A model generated the notes under the pieces. It made no database searches, was not told the origin of the DNA, and saw nothing but the letters and a program-made list of their open reading frames with translations. A stretch of 51,930 nt of DNA from Anaerolineaceae bacterium (GTDB taxonomy: Bacteria; Chloroflexota; Anaerolineae; Anaerolineales; Anaerolineaceae): contig JAAZOQ010000009.1 in NCBI GenBank assembly GCA_012797695.1, positions 1 through 51,930 on the forward strand, in the 5' to 3' direction. A program made the position numbers and the translations under genes. Below, piece after piece: positions 39,954 to 45,708 of the stretch (positions within the stretch are counted from its first letter, which is position 1; each line of letters begins with the position of its first letter).

Positions 39954-40655
39954 TTATTGCGGCTTGCTTTCGGATTCGATCTCGTGCATTTCGCCGGTGG
40001 CGCTAAAAATGGTCCGCTCACAAATGTTGGTCACCCGGTCGGCTACCCGTTCCAGGTTATGAGCCACCCACAACAGCCAGTTAGCCCGCTGAATCGATTT
40101 CGGGTCCTGGATGATGAGCACCATCAACTCACGATAGATCTGATCGTACAGTGCATCGATTTCGTCATCCTGCTGCGGAATACGCCGGGCTTCCTCGACA
40201 TCCTCGTTGATAAAAGCGGTTAAGGCCCGGTGCAGCATGTCGGTCCCCTTCACGGCCATGCGGGGAATATCTACCAGCGGCTTCAGCAAAGGTTCGTTGT
40301 TCATGCGGATATTGATCGTGGCAATCCCTTTGGCATAATCGCCCATGCGCTCCAGCTCGCCTGAAATTTCCAGGATCGAGGCCAGCAGGCGCAGATCGTG
40401 AGCCATCGGCTGCTGTGTAGCAATGGCAATCATGACTTTCTCTTCGATGGCGTAACGTTTTTTGTTGACTTCCTGATCGGTAGCAATAATCTTGTTCGAC
40501 AGATCGATATCCCGTTTCTTCAAAGCGTCCACTGAGCCCAGAATTTGCTGTTCGACCATGCTGCCCAGATAGAGCAGCTCATCACGCAGTTCCTGCAACT
40601 CAATTTCGAGGGTCCGCCTTACGGACTGGTGTTGTTCTTGAGACTCGTTTTCCAT
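39954..40655 (-). CDS. phoU: Phosphate transport system regulator PhoU
   Basis: LLYLGSMVEQQILGSVDALKKRD, ASILEISGELERMGDYAKGIA, HNLERVADRVTNICERTIF. Confidence 0.95.
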   Translation of the reverse strand: MENESQEQHQSVRRTLEIELQELRDELLYLGSMVEQQILGSVDALKKRDIDLSNKIIATDQEVNKKRYAIEEKVMIAIATQQPMAHDLRLLASILEISGELERMGDYAKGIATINIRMNNEPLLKPLVDIPRMAVKGTDMLHRALTAFINEDVEEARRIPQQDDEIDALYDQIYRELMVLIIQDPKSIQRANWLLWVAHNLERVADRVTNICERTIFSATGEMHEIESESKPQ

Positions 40656-40673: not shown

Positions 40674-41498
40674 TTAGCCGAAGCGTCCAGTTACATAATC
40701 TTCGGTACGCTTATCCTGAGGACGCGTGAAGATAATGTTGGTTGAATTATACTCAATCAGCCGCCCAGAGCGAGCCTCATCGATCATCATCATGGCCGTA
40801 TAATCTGAAACACGCGCAGCCTGCTGCATATTGTGGGTCACAATGATGATAGTGTAATCCTTGGCCAGGTCGTGCATCAGCTCTTCGATGCGCAGGGTGG
40901 AAATTGGGTCCAGCGCCGAGGCCGGTTCATCCATCAGAATGACTTCCGGCTGCACCGCCAGAGCGCGTGCAATGCACAAGCGCTGCTGCTGCCCGCCCGA
41001 GAGTGACATACCCGATTGATGCAGTTTATCCTTCACCTCATCCCAGAGTGCTGCCTGGCGCAAACTGCTCTCGACGATCCCATCCAGAATGCCGCGCTGA
41101 TGAACGCCATAAAGCTTGGGTCCATAGGTGACATTATCGTAGATGCTCTTGGGGAACGGATTGGGCCGCTGAAATACCATGCCAATGCGCCGACGCACGT
41201 CTACCACATCGATTTTCTTCCCATAGATATTATCGCCATCCAGGTTGATCTCTCCCTCAATACGCGCGCTGGGGGTCAGATCATTCATCCGATTGAAAGA
41301 GCGCAGCAGGGTCGATTTACCGCAGCCCGAAGGGCCAATGATAGCGGTGATTTTCTTCTCGCGGATTTCCATGTTGATATCGGTGAGCGCGCGAAACTTG
41401 CCATAAAAGACGGAAAGTTGACTGGCACTCATTTTGATTGCTGCGGTTTCCGCCACCATCTCTTCTTCATTTTCTTTAACAGCGATGTTCATGACCAT
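40674..41498 (-). CDS. pstB: Phosphate ABC transporter ATP-binding protein
   Basis: [61 protein letters not shown]. Confidence 0.96.
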
Positions 41499-41500
41499 AA

Positions 41501-42448
41501 CTATCCTCGTAGTTTCTTTTTGCGCACTTCGATCCAGACGCGCGCTAAAATGTTGGTCGCTAAAACCAGGATCATCAATACCAGAGCCACTGCCCAAGCC
41601 TGATCAACCCGTTCCGGATAAGGCTGCTGTGCATATTTCCACAGGGTCAACGGCAGGGAATCGATCGGCGAATCAAAAATTCTGCCCAGAATTGCAAAGA
41701 AGCTCTGATGATTCTGGATGCCGCTGGTAATGATCATTTTCAAGTCAAACCGTTCATTGCCCAAAGTAGTAAACAGCAAGGGGGCAGTTTCACCGGCAGC
41801 ACGGGCAATTGCCAGCAATACACCGGTAATTACGCCATTCATGGCTGCGGGCAGCAGCACACTCAGCGAGGTCTTCCACTCTGACGCCCCCAGTGCCAGC
41901 GAGCCTTCGCGCATGGAAGAAGGCACCAGCTTCAGCATCTCTTCTGTCGTGCGGATGATCGTGGGTACCATCAAGATGGCCAACGCCACACTTCCTGCCA
42001 GTGCAGAGTAATGGCCCTGTGGCCGCACGATCAAAGTGTATCCAAACAGGCCCACTACGATGGAAGGCACCCCCGAAAGCACATCTGTGCTGAAACGCAG
42101 CAGCGTTCCCAATACAGTATTGGGGTTGCGCGCCGCGTAAAAAGCTGCCATTACCCCCGGTACAAAAGCAATCACGGTTGCCATTAAGGTCACGATAATG
42201 GTGCCTTCAATGGCATGTAAGACTCCGCCGCCTTCCATCCCCATAGGCTTGGGGAGTTGCGTGAAGAAGTCGAGATTGATCGATTTTCCCCCTTTGTAAA
42301 TCACGTAACCAATAATCCAGAACAAAGGAACCAAAGCCAGCAAGGTCAGCGCACCGGTCAAAGACAGCATAAAAACGTTGGCAGCTTTGCGCCGTTGCGT
42401 GCGGGTGCGCACCCCTTCCTGCAGTATTTCAGTGTAATTAGGAATCAT
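41501..42448 (-). CDS. pstA: Phosphate ABC transporter permease PstA
   Basis: [50 protein letters not shown] overlap with pstC. Confidence 0.95.
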
Positions 42449-43446
42449 GATCGGGCCTCCTGCGGGTTTCTGCGGGTAACGCTCCACACCAGCAAGCGTG
42501 CGATCATGTTCAAGATCAAGGTCATGGCAAACAGTACAAACCCAATTTCAATCAAAGAAGAAGTATGCAAACTGGATACTGCTTCAGCAAACTCGTTGGC
42601 AATAATACTGGCCATGGTATAACCCGGGCGCAAAATGGAGATCGTTCCCTCGATGCTGTTGCCAATGACCATCGTAACCGCCATGGTTTCGCCCAAAGCG
42701 CGTCCCAGCCCCAGGATCACAGCTCCCAGGATGCCCGAATTGCCATAGGGAAGCAGAATTTGCCAGATGCTTTCCCATTGGGTCGAGCCGAGTGCCAGCG
42801 AAGCTTCTCGCTGTGAATCGGGGATTGCCTGCAGCACATCCCGGCTCACCGCCGCAATGGTAGGGATAATCATGATCGCCAGTATCAGACTGGCTGCCAG
42901 CCGTGAGGCTCCGCTTTGTGGAATTGGGCCAGCAAAGAAAACTCCAATCCCTGGCAGGTGCGAAAACGCATCGTACAACGCCGTTCCAATGGGGGTAACC
43001 ACCGACGGCAGAAAAATGAAAATGCCCCACAGGCCATAAACCACCGAAGGGATGGCAGCCAGCAATTCGACCAGCCAGTTGAGCGGGGTCCGTAGCCAGT
43101 TTGGGCAAAGTTCAGACAGAAAAATGGCTATTCCCAGGCTGATGGGTAAAGCGATGAGCAGCGCCACCAGAGCGGTGATCAGGGTGCCATAGATAAAGGG
43201 CCAGGCTTGGAATTCATTGCTGACCGGGTTCCAGGTAGGATCCTGGGTAGGGATCAAGAAGTTCCAGGAGAAAACGTTGCGTGATTCGGCTGAATCTTTC
43301 CATAATAAAAAGCCAATTGCCAGCATCAAAAAAATGATCAGTGCTGACATAAGAATGATCAGGCTATTCCAGGGCCGATCACCATGATTCAAAATGGAAC
43401 CAAACTTCTTTTTCCAGGAATTTTCAGTATTCGTTGGTTTTTTCAT
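42445..43446 (-). CDS. pstC: Phosphate ABC transporter permease PstC
   Basis: AIPSVVYGLWGIF, MIIPTIAAVSRDVLQAIPDSQREASLALGSTQWES, LGRALGETMAVTMVIGN. Confidence 0.95.
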   Translation of the reverse strand: MKKPTNTENSWKKKFGSILNHGDRPWNSLIILMSALIIFLMLAIGFLLWKDSAESRNVFSWNFLIPTQDPTWNPVSNEFQAWPFIYGTLITALVALLIALPISLGIAIFLSELCPNWLRTPLNWLVELLAAIPSVVYGLWGIFIFLPSVVTPIGTALYDAFSHLPGIGVFFAGPIPQSGASRLAASLILAIMIIPTIAAVSRDVLQAIPDSQREASLALGSTQWESIWQILLPYGNSGILGAVILGLGRALGETMAVTMVIGNSIEGTISILRPGYTMASIIANEFAEAVSSLHTSSLIEIGFVLFAMTLILNMIARLLVWSVTRRNPQEARS

Positions 43447-43520: not shown

Positions 43521-44696
43521 CTACTTGACGGGCTGGCCGTTGCAGGTCACTTCGCCGAGTTTGGCGAGAACCTGATCGCGGACGGCTGCCGGCAAAACGG
43601 AGTAGCCCAGGTCAGCGGCCACTTTAGCGGCACCAGAATCGGTCAGAGTCCAGTTCACGTACTCAACAATCTTCTGAGCTTTGACACAATCGGTCATCGA
43701 GGTAGTGTGCAGGATCAGGTAGGTGTAACCCGTGATCGGCCAGGAACCTTCCCCTTCACCGTCAACAATGGTGGCATTCAGTTTCGCATCGAAAGCGTTG
43801 GCGAAATCAGCCATGTCAGACTCAACCGAGGCAGCGTTGGCAACCACAGTCTTGCCGGCTTTGTTGATGAGGGAAGCCATGGACATACTGTTGGAGATCG
43901 CGTAGGAAAGCTCGACGTAACCAATGCTGTTCTTGGTGTTGATGACTGCAGCGGCTACGCCCTGATTGCCTTTACCACCGATGCCGTTGCCGGCTTTATC
44001 GACAGGCCATTCCACGGAAGAAGCACCACCAGCAGTCCAATCGGTGCTGAAAGAGGTCAAAGCCTTGGTAAAGATCTCGGTCGTGCCAGAGCCATCGGAA
44101 CGATGTACGGCAGTGATGGCAGCATCGGGCAGATAACCATCCAGACCAGGATTCAGAGCCACAATCGCGGGATCATTCCATTTGGTGATCTTGGCATTGT
44201 AGATGTCAACAAGGGTCTGACGATCGAGTACGAGAGCGGGAGCCTTGGTATCAGCGGGGAAATCTTTGGCCCAGGAGATGTTGTACACAGGGACCACAGC
44301 GCCGGCCAGCATGGGGTACATCTGCAGGTCTTTGCCCTGGGTGTACTGGTCATCGTTCAGCAATGAATCAGAGCCAGCGAAATCGAGGGTGTTATCGATG
44401 ATGCCAGATTTACCAGCACCGGAGCCCAAACCCTGATAGTTGATCACAACAGACGGATCGACATACTGATAAGCATAGGTCCACTGGGTGTAAACGGGCA
44501 ATGGGAAGGTAGCGCCACCGGCATTGATCTGAACAGATCCGGGGGCCAGGGTCGCGGTAGCTTCAACGGTGGGGGCGGCTGCTTCAGTAGTAGCAACTTC
44601 AGCAGTGGCTGTCGGCGTGGCAGCCTGACCGCAAGCACTCAAAGCGAATGCAGCGACCAAAAGGGCGAACAATGAAACCATCAAACTCTTACGCAT
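43521..44696 (-). CDS. pstS: Phosphate-binding lipoprotein PstS
   Basis: Lipobox LSACGQA, INAGGATFPLPVYTQW, YQGLGSGAGKSGII, HRSDGSGTTEIFTKALTSF. Confidence 0.96.
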   Translation of the reverse strand: MRKSLMVSLFALLVAAFALSACGQAATPTATAEVATTEAAAPTVEATATLAPGSVQINAGGATFPLPVYTQWTYAYQYVDPSVVINYQGLGSGAGKSGIIDNTLDFAGSDSLLNDDQYTQGKDLQMYPMLAGAVVPVYNISWAKDFPADTKAPALVLDRQTLVDIYNAKITKWNDPAIVALNPGLDGYLPDAAITAVHRSDGSGTTEIFTKALTSFSTDWTAGGASSVEWPVDKAGNGIGGKGNQGVAAAVINTKNSIGYVELSYAISNSMSMASLINKAGKTVVANAASVESDMADFANAFDAKLNATIVDGEGEGSWPITGYTYLILHTTSMTDCVKAQKIVEYVNWTLTDSGAAKVAADLGYSVLPAAVRDQVLAKLGEVTCNGQPVK

Positions 44697-44732
44697 ATTT
44701 TCTCCTTAATTTTTAGATCGATACAAGGATAT

Positions 44733-44781
44733 CAGCCCGGTTTTAATGGGCTGGGAACAACAAGTTAACGTTTTGTTAAAG
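44733..44781 (-). promoter_or_regulatory. Putative Pho-box promoter of pstS
   Basis: Minus strand CTTTAACAAAACGTTAACTTG: TTAACA-N5-TTAACT direct repeat; GTTAA is followed after 18 nt by TTAAAA. Confidence 0.65.
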
Positions 44782-44865
44782 TTGGCTTCTTTTCTGGCGA
44801 ATATCGATTGCAAAAACGAAAACGGTCAAAACCATCACCACGAAGAACACAATTGTTGAATACAT
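44776..44865 (-). CDS. Putative 29-aa single-TM microprotein
   Basis: Not in the ORF track: MYSTIVFFVVMVLTVFVFAIDIRQKRSQL*; SD GAGGAGAGG then AAAAA then ATG. Confidence 0.65.
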   Translation of the reverse strand: MYSTIVFFVVMVLTVFVFAIDIRQKRSQL

Positions 44866-44909
44866 TTTTTCCTCTCCTCGAATCAAACAATTAACTATGT
44901 ACAGCATAC

Positions 44910-44957
44910 CCATCCATTTTTAAGAGGTGCCGAACAGGTGATTAACTTTTGGTTAAA
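44910..44957 (-). promoter_or_regulatory. Putative Pho-box promoter of the 29-aa ORF
   Basis: Minus strand CTTTAACCAAAAGTTAATCACC: same 11-bp-period repeat as the pstS box and the same 18-nt spacing to TTAAAA. Confidence 0.6.
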
Positions 44958-44982
44958 GAAAAAGACCGCTCTTCAGCGGTCT
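44955..44982 (-). terminator. Terminator downstream of menG
   Basis: Minus strand AAGACCGCT-GAAG-AGCGGTCTTTTTCTTT. Confidence 0.88.
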
Positions 44983-45003
44983 TGGAATGAAAAGCCATTT
45001 CAA

Positions 45004-45708
45004 TCAGGGTTTGCGGGCCCAATGGCAGGCCATGGTGCCGAACATAAAGCGTCTGAAGCCAACATCCTCCCATCCAGCAGCGCGCAGACGTTCGGCCAGT
45101 TCTTCAGCCGTCAGAAATTTTTCAGTGGAATTGGGCAAATACTGATATGCCTCACGAACCCCCGAGATCAACCCACCCAGCAAGGGAATAACCAAGTGCA
45201 TGTGCAGCCAGATGAATGGCGACAGCAAATTGCGCCCGGGTTGTGTCGTCTCCAGGATGACCACACGTCCACCCGGTTTGAGCACACGCAGTTGCTCGCG
45301 GATCGCTCCTTCTAGATCCCCTACATTACGCATGAGATAACCTGAAACAACGCCGTCGAAGCATTCCCCCGGAAAAGGTGTTTGCAATGCGTCAGCGGTT
45401 ACGAAAGGCAATGCGCCTTTTTGTGCTTTACCCACCGCCATCATCTGCCAGGTAAAATCCGCCGCCGCCACCTGTGCGGAGGGAGTGACCCGCAGTACTT
45501 CACGCGCCAGATCGCCGGTGCCGCAGCCCAAATCGAGCACCCGCTCGCCCGGCAGCACCGCCAATTTTTGGATAGCAAAACGGCGCCAGCGCACATCCTG
45601 CCCACCAGTCATCAACCGGTTCATCAGGTCATAGTGCTCGGCAATTTGGGCAAACAGGCCATTCACGTAACGCGCCCGTTCTGCGCCTCTCGACATTTCT
45701 TTGGTCAT
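45004..45708 (-). CDS. menG: Demethylmenaquinone methyltransferase (UbiE/MenG family)
   Basis: AEHYDLMNRLMTGGQDVRWRR, VLDLGCGTGDLAREV, YLMRNVGDLEGAIREQLRVLKPGGRVVILETTQP. Confidence 0.93.
   Translation of the reverse strand: MTKEMSRGAERARYVNGLFAQIAEHYDLMNRLMTGGQDVRWRRFAIQKLAVLPGERVLDLGCGTGDLAREVLRVTPSAQVAAADFTWQMMAVGKAQKGALPFVTADALQTPFPGECFDGVVSGYLMRNVGDLEGAIREQLRVLKPGGRVVILETTQPGRNLLSPFIWLHMHLVIPLLGGLISGVREAYQYLPNSTEKFLTAEELAERLRAAGWEDVGFRRFMFGTMACHWARKP

Follow-up and report, generated by a model that had tools for sequence, protein, structure and literature searches.

A predicted membrane microprotein upstream of pstS and its family at the phosphate loci of Anaerolineales

MgrB, which acts on PhoQ, is a membrane microprotein induced by the very two-component system that it then tunes. 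In phosphate signaling, the small DUF1127 proteins (SDPs of A. tumefaciens and YjiS of E. coli) are reported to bind PhoR and keep both Pst expression and phosphate uptake in check, and it has been proposed that the basic protein contacts an acidic region of PhoR (PMC12501420). Another small protein, YoaI of E. coli, is membrane bound and under the control of PhoB (PMC10294691, PMC11853020). The locus described here comes from Chloroflexota, a phylum in which phosphate control has hardly been explored. It appears to add to this much-studied signaling system a conserved microprotein family that lies below the usual gene-calling size and has no curated model.

The microprotein gene and its surroundings

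The window, meaning the whole 51,930-bp stretch of DNA that was analyzed, carries a pst operon on its minus strand. Read 5' to 3' on that strand, menG is followed by a terminator, a Pho-box-like array, a TATGCT -10 hexamer, a Shine-Dalgarno (SD) sequence, a small open reading frame (sORF), a second Pho box, and pstS:

45004..45708, minus strand: menG/ubiE-type methyltransferase, upstream, separately terminated and outside the system (Pfam Ubie_methyltran, 5.4e-48)
44962..44983, minus strand: intrinsic terminator of menG, AAGACCGCT-GAAG-AGCGGTCTT-TTTC, between menG and the sORF (9-bp hairpin and T tail)
44914..44957, minus strand: predicted sORF Pho box, four 11-bp repeats, TTTAACCAAAA GTTAATCACCT GTTCGGCACCT CTTAAAAATGG (19.5 bits, second-best site of the window)
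44903..44908, minus strand: -10 hexamer TATGCT of the sORF promoter, with the spacing from the Pho box that pstS promoters show
44871..44879, minus strand: SD sequence GAGGAGAGG, 5 nt 5' of the ATG, spacer AAAAA (direct reading)
44776..44865, minus strand: sORF encoding the 29-aa microprotein MYSTIVFFVVMVLTVFVFAIDIRQKRSQL (direct reading; E=4.7e-13 with the family profile, whose six sequences include this copy)
44737..44780, minus strand: predicted pstS Pho box, TTTAACAAAAC GTTAACTTGTT GTTCCCAGCCC ATTAAAACCGG, the first repeat holding the sORF stop codon (47.6 bits, best site of the window)
44726..44731, minus strand: -10 hexamer TATCCT of the pstS promoter (direct reading)
43521..44696, minus strand: pstS, phosphate-binding lipoprotein (Pfam PBP_like_2, 1.7e-28)
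42445..43446, minus strand: pstC/pstA-type permease (ORF; clusters with Pst permeases of related loci)
41501..42487, minus strand: pstC/pstA-type permease (ORF; sequence and operon position)
40674..41597, minus strand: pstB ATPase, true start probably internal (by sequence)
39954..40655, minus strand: phoU (Pfam PhoU, 2e-43)

The sORF had been put forward in a first-pass annotation, and reading the minus strand returned exactly the same sequence, coordinates, strand, 29-aa translation, and strong SD. It ends 79 nt before pstS. Its last codon and stop (CTT TAA) run into the first repeat of the pstS Pho box (44776-44778 within 44737-44780), so that coding end and operator overlap. A 44-bp Pho-box matrix (consensus CTTAACAAGACGTTAACCtATTCTTCCATTGcCCTTAAAAGCGG), trained on 49 pstS upstream regions without the window, with only its starting seed coming from the window's pstS box, found just the two listed strong sites on both strands of the 51,930 bp, the next independent site scoring -1.1 bits. 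Their position and 11-bp repeat structure suggest that PhoP binds at these predicted boxes.

The annotation had also proposed a possible action on the menG/pst region. The menG half of this finds no support, because a strong terminator (44962-44983) ends menG ahead of the sORF's own Pho promoter and menG is absent from the recurrent neighbors of the relatives described below. Contamination of the genome bin was considered as a source of the contig and is unlikely, since radC, 5 kb off, is 83% identical to that of a same-genus genome, with two neighbors in synteny.

Relatives of the microprotein in Anaerolineales

Where else does the peptide occur? A tblastn search across 147 genomes of the window's own taxonomic family (f1) returned nothing but noise besides its own copy, and no convincing homologue was seen in the other 146 genomes. 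Weak class-level tblastn matches, such as MNLIFLAVTMILTLIVFGVDASQKRNQYLKEQEI before surE, were the leads that opened the family, and reading the pstS upstream regions of related contigs gave MTAIDLFWFFVVATLIVFGVDIIQKDRIDHR in locus L046; a motif regular expression then gave three more members. In 400 genomes of the order, the six-sequence profile matched roughly 80 sequences at E<1e-3, and a single sister family (f2) accounts for nearly all of them. Most of the marginal matches inspected proved genuine, several lying within about 2 kb of phoR or having a Pho box, and one of them, in G686, comes from a third taxonomic family (f70) and is followed by a SurE start. Nothing convincing was found outside the order, and a match elsewhere in the phylum (G791) was rejected as a chance frame with no sORF-like start or context. 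No Pfam or NCBIfam family fits the 54 members searched, and Rfam and the PDB hold no relative.

From sixty loci we extracted 73 members, 27 to 56 aa in length and all from Anaerolineales, leaving two duplicate loci out of the count. Common to them are a single hydrophobic helix, an invariant Asp after it, and finally a K/R-rich tail, VDxx[QR]KRR (in short form, VDxx[QR]KR). Conserved in the family alignment are M1, V17, D21, K25, and R26, with the Asp and Lys invariant and the Met, Val, and Arg nearly so. The window sORF likewise has a hydrophobic helix, then the Asp, then K-R, its D21, K25, and R26 falling at the motif positions. Net charge is about -0.7 at the N terminus and +4.9 after the Asp. 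ATG is the start codon in 71/73 members, and an SD-like core is found in 46/73 versus 11% at random positions. Many members (e.g., L128, L132, L138, and L142-L149) have no SD and a -10 hexamer (TATCAT/TATGAT) that ends a few nucleotides 5' of the ATG, which suggests leaderless mRNAs. Among ungapped pairs of members, pN/pS is 0.30 and dN/dS about 0.19 (0.22 for 16 independent pairs), and divergence at codon positions 1, 2, and 3 is 0.23, 0.10, and 0.45, respectively. These values, with dN/dS near 0.2, indicate that the family is under protein-level purifying selection; selection on the window copy itself is unmeasurable, because its own taxonomic family offers no close relative.

For 67 of the 73 genes, phoPR, pstSCAB, or phoU is no more than 4.5 kb away. 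Random windows taken from these loci served as background for the Pho-box scores, and 39/73 sORF upstream regions exceed their 99th percentile even though real Pho boxes are among them. Within 4.5 kb are found pst permeases (56 members), pstS (47), surE (47), phoR (41), PHP (40), and phoP (35); ppk, ppx, CHAD, and sixA are also common. Across the relatives, pstS is no more constant a neighbor than phoR, PHP, and surE. (PhoR, through HisKA, HATPase_c, and PAS, and SurE were checked by Pfam, the other neighbors being named by sequence reading.) The usual place is between phoR and PHP-surE-pstS, often as tandem copies, and some copies lie directly before pstS, as in the window. The next downstream Pho-locus gene is PHP in 35, surE in 15, and pstS in 11 (61/73 in total), and phoR is directly upstream in 27/73. 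A PstS tree joins the window, with support of 99/96, to five other loci, two that bear the sORF and three that lack it, and a second, very distant PstS type is likewise accompanied by the sORF. What the microprotein tracks is therefore the Pho locus, rather than any single lineage of PstS.

Some features of individual loci can be added. The PHP-domain protein, SurE nucleotidase, SixA, PPK, PPX, and CHAD genes cluster with phoPR-pst in many f2 loci, the whole being a compact phosphate/polyphosphate locus. Two or three tandem paralogues occur per Pho locus in L096, L098, L104, L108, L122, L123, L126, and L131, often differing in whether a C-terminal FLCQQ-type tail is present. Members in L095, L099, and L100 have no Pho gene that was found nearby, which weighs against the reading preferred below, though L095 nevertheless has a Pho box.

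Profile matches, the shared Pho setting, the Pho box, and a dN/dS of about 0.2 among relatives together take the sORF beyond chance. On this sequence evidence we regard it as a real, previously unannotated gene belonging to an undescribed family, which almost certainly is a genuine microprotein family of the Pho regulon. The first-pass annotation had read the product as a small membrane protein, and the homologous family indeed shares one hydrophobic helix and a K/R-rich tail; the postulated response to phosphate is borne out in silico by the promoter with its Pho box and by the association with Pho/Pst loci. The gene also survived the refuting check that had been proposed for it, a lack of conservation among relatives, but it is the sister family, rather than the nearest genomes, that shows this conservation.

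Possible roles in phosphate control

Because the gene has its own phosphate-starvation promoter and its family is kept beside phosphate-sensing genes, the microprotein probably acts as a small regulatory protein in the sensing or the uptake of phosphate. More specifically, we lean toward a PhoP-induced single-pass membrane protein that would act as a feedback tuner of phosphate signaling or uptake. At low phosphate, PhoP~P (of a PhoB-type regulon) would bind the four 11-bp repeats before the sORF and drive a short mRNA encoding the 29-aa single-pass membrane protein; this mRNA could also read on into pstSCAB-phoU. By the positive-inside rule the N terminus would lie outside and the C terminus inside, so that the invariant Asp would sit where the membrane faces the cytoplasm and the basic K/R tail would extend into it. 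Once induced, the protein would join a phosphate-signaling or uptake complex in the membrane and shift its activity, in a manner akin to that of MgrB on PhoQ or of the DUF1127 proteins on PhoR. The topology, like the partner and the direction of the effect, is one that we infer.

Which protein might be the partner? PhoR is the first candidate, a real possibility that we place a little short of probable. By analogy with DUF1127, the KRR tail would contact PhoR in its segment close to the membrane, though a purely electrostatic version is weakened by the fact that this segment is not acidic in the sORF loci. Nearly every full-length PhoR of the sORF-bearing f2 loci has one N-terminal helix, followed by PAS, HisKA, and HATPase_c, and no periplasmic domain; the exception, L126 gene 2, is a second kinase adjoining a one-helix PhoR. 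The PhoR proteins of sORF-less pst loci (n=5) have two helices and a periplasmic domain. This association between one-helix PhoR and the sORF is suggestive, but it is confounded by ancestry, because a wider search found the one-helix form to be a general trait of f2 and because the PhoR of the window genome, beside PhoP, is of the periplasmic type. The one-helix proteins are about 405 aa long in f2 (e.g., L097:623-1861), versus mostly 470- to 600-aa kinases elsewhere in the order. Homology between the microprotein helix and the PhoR helix was considered and is unsupported (hhalign probability, 2.8). It has long been asked how a PhoR that has no periplasmic sensor can read phosphate, and a microprotein encoded beside a one-helix PhoR is a concrete candidate for an answer.

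The second candidate partner is Pst (PstC/PstA), which we consider unlikely but worth keeping in view. Could the microprotein even be an accessory subunit of the transporter, stabilizing or gating PstC/PstA as a KdpF-like protein? In the window and in L046, L136, and L117, pstS is the next gene downstream of it, pst permease genes are near most members, as counted above, and no phoR is near the sORF in the window. The usual next gene, however, is PHP or surE and not pst, the PstS proteins that occur with the sORF fall into two lineages very far apart, and in f1, as in further lineages, related pst operons do without it, which leaves the subunit a minority possibility. Overlaps recall instead a mere leader peptide through which translation of the following gene would be coupled or attenuated: in L090, L097, and L102 the sORF stop abuts the surE start or runs into it, and in the window it lies inside the pstS Pho box. 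Such a role is very improbable, as the amino acid sequence is conserved upstream of a variety of genes, many copies have a terminator of their own at the end, and tandem copies exist. Least credible of all is a chance ORF in a promoter region. The frame is short and lacks a homologue in the 146 genomes of its own family, but the profile match, common motif, pstS synteny in L046, SD, and Pho box speak against chance, and the family already contradicts it.

A different kind of function is hinted at by the 3' side of the gene. An anti-SD tract (UUCUUCUCCUCC, CUUCUCCUCC, or CTTCTCCTCC-like) lies within 60 nt 3' of the stop in 40/59 free-standing members, compared with 45/184 other Pho-locus 3' ends (p=4e-9) and 1/14 operonic members; 49/59 free-standing members also have a hairpin within 120 nt. 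The newly fetched members L210, L214, L215, and L216 have the tract as well. In L107, L121, L098, L104, L210, L216, and others, CTTCTCCTCC stands 0 to 60 nt after the stop and is followed by a terminator hairpin. The opposite strand of the tract reads as an SD (GGAGGAG) with an ATG, and a conserved peptide is absent there; an antisense peptide was rejected, since the opposite-strand ORFs, when read, were short and not conserved. The transcript might thus have a dual function, yielding both a protein and, through the tract between stop and terminator, a regulatory RNA. Small-protein mRNAs that also yield C-rich small RNAs are known from the rhodobacterial DUF1127 loci, and the enrichment of the tract in free-standing members, mostly with a hairpin following, fits such a precedent. 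Against it, the window copy has no tract, no Rfam family matches, and pairing with the sORF's own SD, which would sequester it, is unsupported (0.21 versus 0.18 for the control); among the local start regions compared, the tract has no preferred own-locus mRNA target. We therefore find the dual function quite doubtful. The combination of tract and terminator after the stop is not seen in the window copy, and not being universal among members, the tract does not define the family.

One broader speculation would combine these elements across the lineage. A PhoR without a periplasmic input domain might have the PhoP-induced microprotein as its membrane partner or input, while the transcript also carried an anti-SD RNA element, giving a protein-plus-RNA Pho feedback module in one large Chloroflexota lineage. 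We rate this as rather unlikely.

Comparison with known systems

The closest functional precedent for a feedback tuner of this kind is provided by the DUF1127 proteins, which are likewise under about 50 aa and basic. They have a different domain, however, whereas a predicted transmembrane helix is the feature of the window's family, and the DUF1127 profile is not among the Pfam or NCBIfam matches of the 54 members. YoaI, compared here by description only, is similar in being a Pho-induced small membrane protein; it is linked to EnvZ and, to our knowledge, does not lie in a pst locus. MgrB differs in having a periplasmic domain and cysteines, and the window's family gave no Pfam match to it. 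What of KdpF and MgtS, to which the first-pass annotation had likened the microprotein? The likeness is one of size, and for KdpF, MgtS, and MgrB alike no match to such a family appeared at E<=0.1 among the models that Pfam and NCBIfam contain. The window's family resembles KdpF and MgtS in being about 30 aa long, with one hydrophobic helix and a place beside a transporter, and is set apart from them by its conserved Asp and KRR tail and by its usual position beside phoR or PHP-surE.
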